Assembly (NCBI GenBank): GCA_023038255.1
Contig: CP082927.1
Location: 330,436-394,435 of the forward strand
Source: Candidatus Peribacteria bacterium
Lineage (GTDB): Bacteria; Patescibacteriota; Gracilibacteria; Peribacterales; Peribacteraceae
Length of the DNA: 64,000 nucleotides
Direction: 5' to 3'
Shown: positions 34,578 to 40,663 of the stretch, piece after piece
Numbering within the stretch: the first letter of the stretch is position 1
How the letters are laid out: each line of letters opens with the position of its first letter
Notes under the pieces: generated by a model
What the model was told of the DNA's origin: nothing
The model's input: the letters and a program-made list of their open reading frames with translations, nothing else
Databases searched by the model: none
Made by a program: the position numbers and the translations under genes

Positions 34578-34898
34578 ATGCCAGCACAAGAGATTTCCGG
34601 CGGCACCGCCCATCCCATGCCTGCAGATTTGAAGAAGGCACTGCTGGCCGACAAAGAGGCGCTCACTCAGTGGGAAAGTCTCACGCCACTCGCGCGCAAC
34701 GAATGGATTTGCTGGGTGGAATATGTGAAGAAAGCGGAGACACGCAAAGAACACATCGAACGGATTCCTGAGCAGCTCAAAGAAGGGGATCGCCGTCCGT
34801 GTTGCTGGATGGGGTGTATGCACCGGACGGATAAGCCACTGAGTTCCACGCAGAAGTGGATTCTGGAGAAGAAGAAAGCGAAGAAAGAGATCGTATAA
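34578..34898 (+). CDS. YdeI/OmpD-associated-type small protein
   Basis: A 106-residue protein with the pattern of the C-terminal part of the YdeI family: LKKALLADKEALTQWESLTPLARNEWICWVEYVKKAETRKEHIERIPEQLKEG. The usual ending is replaced by a cysteine-containing CCWMGCMHR and a lysine-rich tail. The biochemical role of the family is not known. ATG 34578 is preferred over the frame start at 34515 because of the TACAAT box. Confidence 0.75.
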   Translation: MPAQEISGGTAHPMPADLKKALLADKEALTQWESLTPLARNEWICWVEYVKKAETRKEHIERIPEQLKEGDRRPCCWMGCMHRTDKPLSSTQKWILEKKKAKKEIV

Positions 34899-34919: not shown

Positions 34920-35156
34920 TTAAATCAATCTTTTGTTTCTAAAGGCAAAGCCTGACGAACTCTTTAAATATTTTTCAAATGCATATGCTTTCTCCTTATT
35001 TTTAAAAGCAGCAAAAAAGATTAATTCATCTGGGCGAAGCCTGCTTGTTGTTGGAACTGCATGATGCCTATGTTTTTCTGTTCTTTTCACGAGATCATTT
35101 GTACAGCCAATGTAATGCTGATTATTTTTCAGATGAAGAATGTAAACAAAATACAT
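34920..35156 (-). CDS. GIY-YIG endonuclease-like protein
   Basis: A 78-residue single-domain protein: FVYILHLKNNQHYIGCTNDLVKRTEKHRHHAVPTTSRLRPDELIFFAAFKNKEKAYAFEKYLKSSSG. The YIL...YIG strands, the arginine in LVKR, the histidine and the late glutamate in FEKYLK are those of UvrC-like GIY-YIG nucleases. Stand-alone short versions are common and mostly uncharacterised. The open frame reaches 35321, but the homologous part starts at ATG 35156. The gene is AT-rich and sits beside the multi-hairpin repeats. Confidence 0.85.
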   Translation of the reverse strand: MYFVYILHLKNNQHYIGCTNDLVKRTEKHRHHAVPTTSRLRPDELIFFAAFKNKEKAYAFEKYLKSSSGFAFRNKRLI

Positions 35157-35286
35157 GTAGATAGTATGGTCTTTTGTTAAGAGCACATTGATGGAAAATA
35201 AAAGAATAAAAAGTGGATATGCAAAAAAATGGCATAGAAAAGAGAAAATCTTTGTTCTATAACCAAAAAGAACAACACAAAATAGG

Positions 35287-35468
35287 TTGCCCCACGCCGC
35301 TCTCGGAGCTCCGCGGGGCACACTTCGGATTATCTATTAAAAAAGTTTCACATTGAACAAACCAGCCCACGCCGTCCCGCTCTTGCGGAACTCTGCGGGC
35401 TAGGCGATCCACTCACTCTCTTGAGTTCGTGGCTCGCCACGCGAAGCTCTCCAGAGAGAGCGAAGTGT
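35287..35468. repeat. Multi-hairpin repeat unit 1
   Basis: About 182 bases containing four hairpins in a row: GCCCC/GGGGC; GCCC/GGGC with inner CCGC/GCGG; a perfect-looking GGCGA/TCGCC with inner CCAC/GTGG and ACTC/GAGT; and CACGC-GAA-GCTCTC-CAGA-GAGAGC-GAA-GTG. It is repeated almost identically 205 bases further on. Confidence 0.85.
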
Positions 35469-35491
35469 ATAATTATGGAATTATTTTTTAA

Positions 35492-35671
35492 TTGCCCCAC
35501 GCCGCTAAAGCTCCGCGGGGCACACTTCGGATTATCTATTAAAAAAAGTTTCATATTGAATAAACCAGCCCACGCCGTCCCGCTCTTGCGGAACTCTGCG
35601 GGCTAGGCGATCCACTCACTCTCTTGAGTTCGTGGCTCGCCACGCGAAGCTCTCCAGAGAGAGCGAAGTGT
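35492..35671. repeat. Multi-hairpin repeat unit 2, touching tmRNA 3' end
   Basis: About 180 bases, nearly identical to unit 1 apart from the first hairpin loop and small changes. Its last hairpin ends at the final A of the tmRNA CCA (plus-strand T at 35671). Confidence 0.85.
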
Positions 35672-36084
35672 GGTGGAGATGCCGAGAATTGAACTCGGGT
35701 CCAACGTGTGAACATGGTGCCCGTACGATCATGAATCTTCCGTTACTCACAGTTCCTTAGGAAGAAACAAGGATGGAGTGTGAGGATGACAGAGGGATGT
35801 CGGAGCAGTGCACTGTCAGACACTGATCCCACCTCACTGATAACGCCTTATCCTTTTAGTGAGGATGGAAGGTAAAGCGCGTTTCCACAAAGGGGAAACT
35901 TAGGCTGCGAATGCGAAGGAGCGAACGCTAGTCAGAGACTGAGCGAAACGCAGGCCCTTCTCAAGGCGAGCTGTTGCAGATTTGGCTGCAGTTGTTTTTG
36001 CAACAAGTGGGTATCGGGAACCGTTGCCATCCCGGATCGGAGCGACGCATATCCAGAATCACGCTGTCGAAGCCTGTCATCCCC
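35671..36084 (-). ncRNA. ssrA: tmRNA
   Basis: Rescues stalled ribosomes. The 5' end GGGGATG (36084 downwards) pairs over 7 bases with CATCTCC just before discriminator A and encoded CCA; the T arm is GACCCGAGTTCAATTCTCGG. Pseudoknot 1 is visible: CGGGA/TCCCG, with loop GCAAC pairing to GTTGC. Ten bases later a GCA resume codon (35989-35987) opens a frame that ends FAFAA followed by TAA at 35902-35900. The tag would be 29 residues, starting AAKSA; this is long, as most tags are near 10. A GTTTCC/GGAAAC hairpin follows the stop. Confidence 0.93.
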
Positions 36085-36140: not shown

Positions 36141-36172
36141 GTCCTCCGTAGCTCCAAAGAGCGAAGGGGGAC
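36141..36172. repeat. Hairpin with GTA/GAA internal loop, copy a
   Basis: GTCCTCC, GTA, GCTC, CAAA, GAGC, GAA, GGGGGAC: two stems of 7 and 4 pairs separated by a symmetric GTA/GAA loop. Confidence 0.75.
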
Positions 36173-36237: not shown

Positions 36238-36250
36238 GGATATGGGCTTG

Positions 36251-36286
36251 CCCGGCGTAGCTCAAAGAGCGAAGTCGGGTCTTTTT
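36251..36286 (+). terminator. Hairpin with GTA/GAA internal loop, copy b, followed by T run
   Basis: CCCGGC, GTA, GCTC, AAA, GAGC, GAA, GTCGGG, then TCTTTTT. The shape and T run suit a terminator on the plus strand, though no plus-strand gene ends just before it, so it may serve as a structural repeat instead. Confidence 0.45.
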
Positions 36287-37624: not shown

Positions 37625-40600
37625 ATGGCATCTATGAACTTTCCTCGTGGTTCTGAATGGCGCAAGTGGGATTTACATGTCCACACCCCAGCATCCATTT
37701 TAGAGAATGGATTTGGAGAAGATTGGGATGGATATGTAAAAAACCTTTTTCTTTCTGCAATTCAAAAAAATATTGCGGTAATAGGAGTTACTGATTATTT
37801 TTATATTGAAGGTTTTAAAAAAATAAAAAGTTATACGCAAAGCGATTCGGAGATGGAAAGAATCTTCGGCGATGATCAACTATTAATTCAAAAAATTAGG
37901 GAAATAAAATTGTTTCCCAATATAGAATTTCGATTATTTCCAATTAACGGTCAACGATTAAATTTCCATGTTATTTTCTCAGATAGTGTGAGTGTAGAGA
38001 ACATTGAAGAAAACTTTCTACACAATCTAAATTTTGTTAGTGAGAGTGATCCGTCTGGAGGGGATGAAAAAAGAAAATTAAAAAAAATTAATTTAGAAGA
38101 ATTAGGAAGAAAATTAAGAGATGAACATGAGCCTTTTAGAGATAGGTCTAATTTACATATAGGAATGATGAATGCTGTAGTTAACGATGGGGAAATAGTC
38201 GATGAATTAAAAAACAATAAAGTATTTTCTGGAAAATATATATTAACTATTCCTTGTGACGAAGATTTAAGTAAAATTTCATGGAACGGACAGGATCATA
38301 ATACTCGCAAGAAAATGATCCAAAAATCTCATTTTTTGTTGTCATCTAATGCTTCGACAATACAATGGGGGCTTGGTCTTAAACATAGTTCAAAAGAAGA
38401 ATTTGCAAAAGAATTCAAAACAATTAAACCTTGTATTTGGGGATCCGATGCTCATAAAAACGAAACGCTATTTGAACCCGCAGAACAAAGATACACTTGG
38501 ATAAAAGCAGATCCAACTTTTGCGGGTTTAAAACAAGTACTCAATGAACCAGATAGAGTGTTTATCGGAGCAGAATCACCTAATGTTAAAAGTGATCATC
38601 AAATAATTAATAACATTATAGTAAAAAATTCTAACGGATGGTTTCAGGAAGATTTTAAGATTGATATTAATTCTGATTTAATTGCAATCATAGGTGGCAG
38701 AGGTTCTGGTAAGTCGGCTTTATTGGAAATGATTGCATTGGCTGGTGGAGTTAAAGATACGAGTAGTAATGCCTTCCTCGATAAGGCAAAAAGGCATATA
38801 GATTCGATTGAAGGAACGAGTATTGAATTACAGTGGAAAGGAGGGAATATTACAAAGGCAATTGTAGGAGGTGACATGCCCCAAGAAGAATTACTACAAT
38901 TTCTACCACAACAATTTGTTGAGAAGATTTGTTCACCTGATTCAGATGGAGATTTATTGAGGCAAATTGAAGATGTAATTTTCCAAGCGCTAGATGAAAC
39001 AGAAAAACAAGGAGCATCTGATTTTGAATCTCTTTTATCTAAATTATTAATAAGATTTGAAATACAAAAAGAAGAAAGAATTCAAGAAATACGTTCGATT
39101 AATAAGAAAGTCTACGAATTAAAAGCTTCAATTAACGAAGTGCCACAAAAGCAAAAAACAATTTTAAATAAAGAAGCTGAGTTAAGGCAACTTAAGGAAA
39201 CTCTGCCAAAACTTTCAATAGAAGATAAGAAAGACCAAGATACATTAGTAAAATTAAATACTCTGAAAGATATAATTGAAGCTAAAATTATTGAAATTAA
39301 AGACTCTGAAATTCGTATTCCTGAAATAGAAACAAGGCTCTCAATTCTTAAAGAGAATATTGATAAACAAATCACTGATATTAATGCCCTCCTTGATTAT
39401 ATTGGTATTGAAAAAGAAAATATAATTAGCTTTATTCTCGATGATCAAAAATTGAATCAGGCACTTGCAAAGAAAAAAGGTGATTTAGCACTACAAATTC
39501 AAACCCTAAAGTCAGGCGAAGAGGCTGCTGTAAAAAAGATTTTAGGACTGGAAGAAATTATTTCTCCAAACTTAGATATTGTGAAAAATACAATTGAAGA
39601 GATTGTTAATAAAACAAAAGCGCATGAAACTGCTAAGTTGAAATATCAATTCCAAATGAAGGAAATTGAGAAAATTGATAAAGAGATTTTACTTTTAAAA
39701 GCTGAAATTGAATTGACAAAGACCACAAAGCAAAAAGAGTACGACGAATTAAGCGCCAAGAGAGTTATAATATTTTCCTCATTTTTCCAACTATTAATAG
39801 AAGAAAAAAAAGAGATTGAAAAATTGTATCTACCATTGCAGCATTCGTTAGATATTAGCTCTTCGGATGCTGATAGAAGTCTTCATTTTGAAGCTAAAAT
39901 TATTTATGAAGTAGATAAGCATTGGCAAGATGGGCTTGATTTAATTGATAGAACAAAAAAAGGACGTTTCAGGAGTCCGGAAAATTTAAAGGAGGCATTG
40001 AATGAATTTTGGTTAAAAATTTCTTCTCCTAATTTTGTTGAATTATCTGTTAAACAGGGCATTTATGATTTAATTAAAAAGTTTTTAACAGTTTCAGAAG
40101 GAGGTAAAGAGGTGGATCTTAGTATCGAGGATCAGTTAAGACAGAATCATAGCTTGGAACATTTCGCGAACTGGATTCTTGATGTTAATCGCTACAAAGT
40201 AATTTCTTCATTGAAATTTGATGGAACAGAATTGACTTTGTTATCACCAGGACAAAAGGGAATTGTATTACTAATTCTCTATTTGCATATTGATAAATCT
40301 GATACCCGGCCTCTCTTAGTAGATCAGCCAGAAGATAATTTAGATAATTTGTCTGTATATGTAGATTTAATTGAATATTTTAAAGAGAGAAAATTAAATA
40401 GGCAGATTATTATTGCTACACATAATCCTAATTTAGTTGTTAATACAGATGCAGAACAGATATGTATTTCAAATTATGAAGGAGGCAATAAACCAAGAAT
40501 AAATTATCAAACTGGTTCTCTTGAAAATTGTGCTAATCCGAATCTCGATGGCGAAGCATTTACAGATGGAATTATTGAAAATGTCTGTAAAATACTTGAA

Positions 40601-40663
40601 GGTGGTACAGCTGCATTTTCAAGTCGAAGAAAAAAATATCAGCTCTCTCCAAGAGAGATTTAA
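37625..40663 (+). CDS. TrlF-family PHP/SMC-like ATPase, probable defence protein
   Basis: A 1012-residue protein. It begins with a PHP phosphoesterase-like domain (KWDLHVHTPASI at about residues 14-25, GVTDYFYIEG, CIWGSDAHKNETLF), then an SMC/AAA-like ATPase with Walker A IGGRGSGKSALLE near residue 355, a coiled-coil region of about 300 residues, and Walker B RPLLVDQPEDNLDNLSVY near 897 with ATHNPNLVVN. These are the features of TrlF-family ATPases, often found in defence islands; the reaction is not established to my knowledge. The gene is far more AT-rich than both flanks and stands alone, which indicates recent transfer. ATG 37625 or 37634 may be the start. Confidence 0.85.
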   Translation: MASMNFPRGSEWRKWDLHVHTPASILENGFGEDWDGYVKNLFLSAIQKNIAVIGVTDYFYIEGFKKIKSYTQSDSEMERIFGDDQLLIQKIREIKLFPNIEFRLFPINGQRLNFHVIFSDSVSVENIEENFLHNLNFVSESDPSGGDEKRKLKKINLEELGRKLRDEHEPFRDRSNLHIGMMNAVVNDGEIVDELKNNKVFSGKYILTIPCDEDLSKISWNGQDHNTRKKMIQKSHFLLSSNASTIQWGLGLKHSSKEEFAKEFKTIKPCIWGSDAHKNETLFEPAEQRYTWIKADPTFAGLKQVLNEPDRVFIGAESPNVKSDHQIINNIIVKNSNGWFQEDFKIDINSDLIAIIGGRGSGKSALLEMIALAGGVKDTSSNAFLDKAKRHIDSIEGTSIELQWKGGNITKAIVGGDMPQEELLQFLPQQFVEKICSPDSDGDLLRQIEDVIFQALDETEKQGASDFESLLSKLLIRFEIQKEERIQEIRSINKKVYELKASINEVPQKQKTILNKEAELRQLKETLPKLSIEDKKDQDTLVKLNTLKDIIEAKIIEIKDSEIRIPEIETRLSILKENIDKQITDINALLDYIGIEKENIISFILDDQKLNQALAKKKGDLALQIQTLKSGEEAAVKKILGLEEIISPNLDIVKNTIEEIVNKTKAHETAKLKYQFQMKEIEKIDKEILLLKAEIELTKTTKQKEYDELSAKRVIIFSSFFQLLIEEKKEIEKLYLPLQHSLDISSSDADRSLHFEAKIIYEVDKHWQDGLDLIDRTKKGRFRSPENLKEALNEFWLKISSPNFVELSVKQGIYDLIKKFLTVSEGGKEVDLSIEDQLRQNHSLEHFANWILDVNRYKVISSLKFDGTELTLLSPGQKGIVLLILYLHIDKSDTRPLLVDQPEDNLDNLSVYVDLIEYFKERKLNRQIIIATHNPNLVVNTDAEQICISNYEGGNKPRINYQTGSLENCANPNLDGEAFTDGIIENVCKILEGGTAAFSSRRKKYQLSPREI

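Follow-up and report, generated by a model that had tools for sequence, protein, structure and literature searches.

Directly downstream of the tmRNA gene of a Candidatus Peribacteria bacterium lie two nearly identical groups of hairpins, and the question this locus raises is whether they serve the tmRNA or arrived there as something mobile. The stretch of DNA analysed (64,000 nt; hereafter, the window) belongs to a complete genome consisting of a single contig of 1,239,242 bp. Its AlaRS groups with Candidatus Peribacteria (Peribacteraceae), whereas the neighbouring histidine kinase gave no match to a named relative. The tmRNA is encoded on the minus strand, from 36084 to 35671, and the repeat therefore lies downstream of it, as its 3′ flank. 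The features of the locus, in plus-strand coordinates, are as follows.

34578..34898, plus strand: small conserved protein gene, a neighbour outside the putative element; its orthologue lies directly 3′ of the tmRNA in a relative (G009).
34920..35156, minus strand: 78-aa GIY-YIG nuclease ORF (PF01541), the only protein of the putative element, with intact catalytic motifs, conserved residues and purifying selection.
35157..35286, minus strand: AT-rich linker from leader A to the ORF, longer than in most relatives.
35287..35467, minus strand: distal hairpin unit A, assigned by repeat comparison as the probable leader of the ORF-bearing copy.
35468..35491, strand not applicable: AT-rich spacer of 24 nt between the units, from the sequence.
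35492..35670, minus strand: proximal hairpin unit B, abutting the CCA (CACTTCGC...GTGTGCCCCGCGGAGC..GCGGCGTGGGGC; four hairpins), with H1 and P4 motifs that also occur in the leaders of relatives.
35492..35525, strand not applicable: right hairpin P4 of unit B, with polarity opposite to H1 (−21.1 kcal/mol on the minus strand versus −16.0 on the plus strand).
35640..35673, strand not applicable: left-end hairpin H1 of unit B, whose outer stem CCAC/GTGG takes in the tmRNA CCA (−19.3 kcal/mol on the plus strand versus −13.8 on the minus strand).
35671..36084, minus strand: tmRNA gene (ssrA), the proposed insertion target, identified by ARAGORN and Rfam (RF00023, 83.9 bits), with an encoded CCA at 35671–35673.
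36141..36171, plus strand: one of two solitary hairpins lying upstream of the tmRNA, CCGTAGCTC..GAGCGAAGG.
36248..36280, plus strand: the other solitary hairpin, of the same motif and likewise upstream, GCGTAGCTC..GAGCGAAGT.

The two tandem units, ~180 nt each, share 98% identity across 130 nt and then 100% across another 38 nt, with a start-to-start spacing of 202–205 nt, and folding places four hairpins in each, confirming the original prediction on both points. The block as a whole folds much more stably than its shuffled versions (z = −8.7 on the minus strand and −9.2 on the plus strand), none of which was equally stable. The last hairpin had been said to meet the CCA end of the tmRNA at 35671; it does, and H1 of unit B (CCACACTTCGCTCTC-tctg-GAGAGCTTCGCGTGG) even includes the CCA in its outer stem. 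H1 and P4 thus form a pair of inverted imperfect hairpins of opposite polarity, and their stability on opposite strands is what would be expected of inverted ends read as DNA. No known RNA family in Rfam matched the repeat or the leaders, in the window and 16 element loci. A group I or II intron carrying a homing endonuclease was considered and rejected, as no Rfam intron model matched in that same set. The tmRNA itself has a long predicted tag peptide of 29 aa, AAKSATARLEKGLRFAQSLTSVRSFAFAA.

The genome search for more copies that had originally been suggested gave a divided result. No further copy of the whole unit exists in the 1.24 Mb of the complete genome; for a related simple hairpin, AGCTC..GAGCGAAG, there are 12 copies (versus one for the reversed pattern used as a control), and 4 of the 12 flank the tmRNA. 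The other eight (G000:C1, L006–L013) are solitary and distant from the tmRNA, several beside tRNA genes or intergenic, and are perhaps decayed leader hairpins.

A GIY-YIG ORF also belongs to the block and had been missed. It scores 54.2 bits against the PF01541 profile (curated cut-off 22.6), which places it in the superfamily, and in the family alignment Y5, Y15, G17, R25, H29 and E61 are invariant, as is a K, with a T invariant or nearly so. The nuclease genes show a pN of 0.09–0.22 versus a pS of 0.8–1.1, with synonymous change saturated, indicating that the nuclease is maintained as a functional protein though its genes occupy different loci. Known transposases are absent from the element, whose only protein is the GIY-YIG nuclease, and NCBIfam gave no match. 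The same neighbourhood, tRNA-His followed by hairpins and then the ORF, surrounds a second small GIY-YIG gene in this genome (L095). To our knowledge, no UPF0213/YhbQ-like protein has been linked to tRNA ends or hairpins, and no member of the GIY-YIG superfamily is known to act as a transposase on its own. The UPF0213/YhbQ-like proteins, which share the single-domain fold, provide the closest solved structure (BH0048, PDB 1zg2).

We consider it highly likely, on the strength of sequence comparison, that the block consists of two copies of the 5′ leader of a mobile element of ~0.4–0.5 kb whose sole gene encodes a stand-alone GIY-YIG nuclease, and whose insertion sites are the ends of tRNA and tmRNA genes. 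The comparisons that support this reading concern the shared layout, the junction at the CCA, the single orientation, the many tRNA isotypes, the target duplications, the filled and empty sites, the leader-only copies and the selection on the nuclease. An insertion element of REP/MITE-like type had been one of the original suggestions, and the copies found at many tRNA and tmRNA ends in relatives, with their duplications and empty sites, support it. Mobility and a link to RNA genes had been set against each other; both are supported, and what falls is the either/or, for the element appears to target RNA genes.

The arrangement of leader, GIY-YIG ORF and tRNA or tmRNA recurred when related genomes were compared, as the original prediction had proposed doing. 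For 61 Peribacteraceae ORFs, 600 nt or more of sequence lay upstream; within those 600 nt, a tRNA or tmRNA gene was present on the same strand for 49 ORFs and on the opposite strand for one, against a background chance of about 0.5% in sampled contigs and of 0.9% for the window itself. The RNA genes concerned are the tmRNA and the tRNAs for Ala, Arg, Asp, Asn, Cys, Gln, Glu, Gly, His, Ile, Leu, Met, Pro, Ser, Thr, Tyr and Val. The nuclease family is present in 109 of 145 genomes across the phylum; in families other than the Peribacteraceae the layout was found for 20 of 30 sampled ORFs, several of them at the tmRNA, and none on the opposite strand. Within a set of 32 named mixed genomes the family was confined to CPR-type genomes and one Woesearchaeote. 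Seven of the 31 ORFs in this set directly follow an RNA gene; many have no intact upstream tRNA, some of these lying in rRNA or RNase P RNA genes or beside split tRNAs and others being unexplained. Five viral contigs without tRNAs and one distant plasmid match were found, and vectors are not evident.

The leaders begin immediately after the CCA in nearly all cases. In the subfamily to which the window belongs they read CACTTCGC-stem-GC(T/A)TCGCGTGG ... GCGAAGTGTG-CCCCGCNNAGC-stem-GCGNNGTGGGGC, the P4 motif of relatives being GTGTGCCCCGCNNAGC..GCGNNGTGGGGC; the outer motifs are constant, and the inner stem occurs in nine different sequences, complementary every time. The CACTTCGC leader is found after the tmRNA and after tRNAs for Ala, Pro, Tyr, Val and Ile, and because it sits behind several different RNA genes it is independent of the host gene. 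Across 59 distinct left ends (taken with the CCA), complementarity to the element's own leader had a median of 9 bp, compared with mostly 4–6 bp to the leaders of others, a pattern that points to compensatory change across subfamilies. Terminal inverted repeats are weak overall: they are clear in L216 and L206 only, and 6 of 50 elements reach at least 10 of 14 matches where about two are expected.

Behind the ORF, the last nucleotides of the RNA gene may appear a second time. The element's own tRNA 3′ end was repeated there with at least 13 of 16 matches in 8 of 50 elements, versus 0.4% of mismatched pairs; extended matches span 12–21 nt, and only ~15–20% of elements retain the duplication. 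Within one genus, the tRNA-His site is filled in G060 (20–21 nt copy) and in G080 (19 nt copy), each copy matching that genome's own, differing tRNA, and is empty in G076. Homology between species ends exactly at the CCA for tRNA-Ala (G064 versus the empty G004 and G081) and for tRNA-Cys (G013 versus the empty G067 and G252). The right flank lacks conservation at the empty sites, so that there the left boundary alone is proven. At tRNA-Cys, a leader-only second copy stands in tandem after the duplicated end of the full element. Taken together with the survey, the same leader and nuclease are thus found at non-orthologous sites, namely many tRNA isotypes and the tmRNA. Separately, the tRNA-Cys of G067 (L297) carries, just after the CCA, a perfect palindrome with an inverted copy of the tRNA 3′ end, and G252, the sister species, lacks ~150 nt of that region.

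The tmRNAs of L107, L110 and L117 have leader-only copies as well; in L117 the end of the tmRNA is repeated over 13 nt. Since such copies exist in relatives, the window block is best read, as far as comparison goes, as a leader-only copy (unit B) followed by a copy with leader and ORF (unit A). The 24-nt spacer between the units holds no copy of the tmRNA 3′ end, and behind the ORF neither a target duplication nor a right end was detected; the next gene, on the opposite strand, ends 21 nt away. The window copy has therefore probably lost its right end and target duplication, and is old, degraded or immobile. Among other tmRNAs, L102 and L117 have a leader-like insertion without an ORF followed by a 12–13 nt copy of the tmRNA 3′ end, and in the 3′ flanks of L122 and L124 the CCA is directly followed by a different hairpin family (TTCGACTCG...CGAGTCGAA), beyond which lies a different GIY-YIG ORF.

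In the layout that recurs in these comparisons, a complete element consists, after a tRNA or tmRNA ending in CCA, of the hairpin leader, the GIY-YIG ORF, a short right end and a copy of the last 12–21 nt of the RNA gene, the leader comprising the left hairpin H1, which uses the CCA, optional nested hairpins and the right hairpin P4 of opposite polarity. From these patterns we infer a mechanism in which the nuclease would recognise the paired hairpin ends and nick or cut the RNA gene near its 3′ end, between the T-loop and the CCA. The cut would be staggered by ~20 nt and repaired with a copy of the element, so that the RNA gene would stay whole ahead of the element and its duplicated end would follow it. 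Targeting the end of an RNA gene would render the insertion harmless. Leader-only units such as 35492–35670 would be non-autonomous derivatives, moved or duplicated along with the element.

GIY-YIG ORFs of the same family were also found inside 16S rRNA, 23S rRNA and RNase P RNA genes (L278, L264 and L277). At six loci (L263, L276, L281, L285, L247 and L253), the ORF and hairpins have on one side a 5′ fragment of a tRNA, 15–52 nt long, and on the other a complete tRNA of that kind. These loci suggest a second insertion geometry, inside tRNA genes, in which longer duplications of the 5′ part would likewise rebuild the RNA gene. The evidence seems to us evenly balanced on a wider proposal, that these are phylum-wide minimal transposable elements of Patescibacteria in which a single-domain GIY-YIG nuclease is the transposase and the paired inverted hairpin ends are what it recognises; insertion would be into structural RNA genes (tRNA/tmRNA 3′ ends, tRNA loops, rRNA and RNase P RNA), unusually long target duplications of ~20 nt or more would rebuild the gene, and leader-only derivatives would arise from the elements.

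GIY-YIG is a classic homing nuclease domain, and the insertions inside rRNA and RNase P RNA genes are what a free-standing homing endonuclease might leave. Such an enzyme would spread only by homing, from one allele of an RNA gene into others that lack the element, with the hairpins as intervening-sequence-like spacers removed or tolerated in the RNA. The present elements share with free-standing GIY-YIG homing endonucleases the catalytic domain and the habit of a selfish gene at a harmless site. They differ in lacking an allelic homing pattern: one leader type behind many different tRNAs implies ectopic insertion at many isotypes, and the duplicated ends match each host's own tRNA, whereas allelic conversion makes none. 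They differ also in their structured leader and in their size of 78–90 aa, without an additional DNA-binding domain. Insertions with GIY-YIG ORFs that are not group I or II introns have been reported in CPR rRNA genes, and that study (2024) itself found them at odds with homing spread (PMC11270868). Those insertions resemble the present elements in their occurrence in Patescibacteria, their GIY-YIG ORF and their position in structural RNA genes; they were described from rRNA genes alone, and that paper uses none of the terms 'tRNA gene', 'tmRNA' and 'hairpin'. The 16S and 23S family members found here are probably the same elements. On balance we regard homing as an unlikely account.

Even less probable is that the repeat is of REP/REPIN type, moved by a tyrosine (HUH/RAYT) transposase encoded at another locus of the genome, with the GIY-YIG gene as a hitch-hiker. 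The pair of imperfect hairpins, opposite in polarity and separated by a spacer, and the solitary hairpins in the genome fit it, and REPIN/RAYT systems likewise couple one small enzyme that acts on DNA to a short non-coding unit made up of two inverted imperfect hairpins, and have non-autonomous copies. The nuclease ORF, however, is tied to the leader across the phylum and is under selection; the linked enzyme is a GIY-YIG nuclease rather than a Y1/HUH transposase, and the element is tied to tRNA and tmRNA genes, with target duplications of 12–21 nt.

The original prediction also held that the block might protect, process or terminate the tmRNA 3′ end, and a host element of this kind (a terminator, RNase III site or 3′-end protection, duplicated by chance) would account for a block that abuts the CCA, draws it into a hairpin and folds far better than shuffles. 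Comparison weighs against this: many relatives' tmRNAs lack the block and have unrelated sequence directly after the CCA, as in G009, where the orthologue of the 34578..34898 gene comes directly next, so the block is not required for the tmRNA; with the same leaders behind unrelated tRNAs and empty sites in sister species, a host element is highly improbable. An effect on tmRNA 3′ processing is possible, because H1 draws in the CCA. We think equally little of an RNA-level route, in which element RNA is linked to the CCA ends of mature tRNAs and then reverse-transcribed into DNA: the junction exactly after the CCA at many isotypes would suit it, but the element has no reverse transcriptase, the D-loop and T-loop insertions with a duplicated tRNA 5′ part start elsewhere than the CCA, and the inverted polarity of the leader's end hairpins fits DNA recognition better. 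Elsewhere in the window (37625–40663), a 1012-aa ORF with a PHP-like start and ATPase-like features by eye is located in a stretch of 31% GC within a region of ~52% GC and was likely acquired horizontally.

The favoured reading, a mobile element with the GIY-YIG nuclease as its only protein, has one further parallel. Casposons and the integrative elements that target tRNA genes exploit tRNA 3′ ends, and after their insertion the tRNA is restored and its 3′ end is present in duplicate. Their length runs to kilobases and they depend on an integrase or Cas1, whereas the element described here would manage with ~0.4–0.5 kb and one nuclease of 78–90 aa. We found no description of such an element in the open literature (subscription papers and preprints were outside this scope, and an earlier description is possible), and the class is apparently undescribed so far.

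If the interpretation is correct, these would be among the smallest autonomous mobile elements, with GIY-YIG as a lone transposase and a harmless way into essential RNA genes. They would offer biochemistry a compact system that targets RNA genes, would account for the small GIY-YIG genes beside tRNAs throughout Patescibacteria, and would supply a mechanism for the uncharacterised GIY-YIG insertions in the rRNA genes of this phylum.
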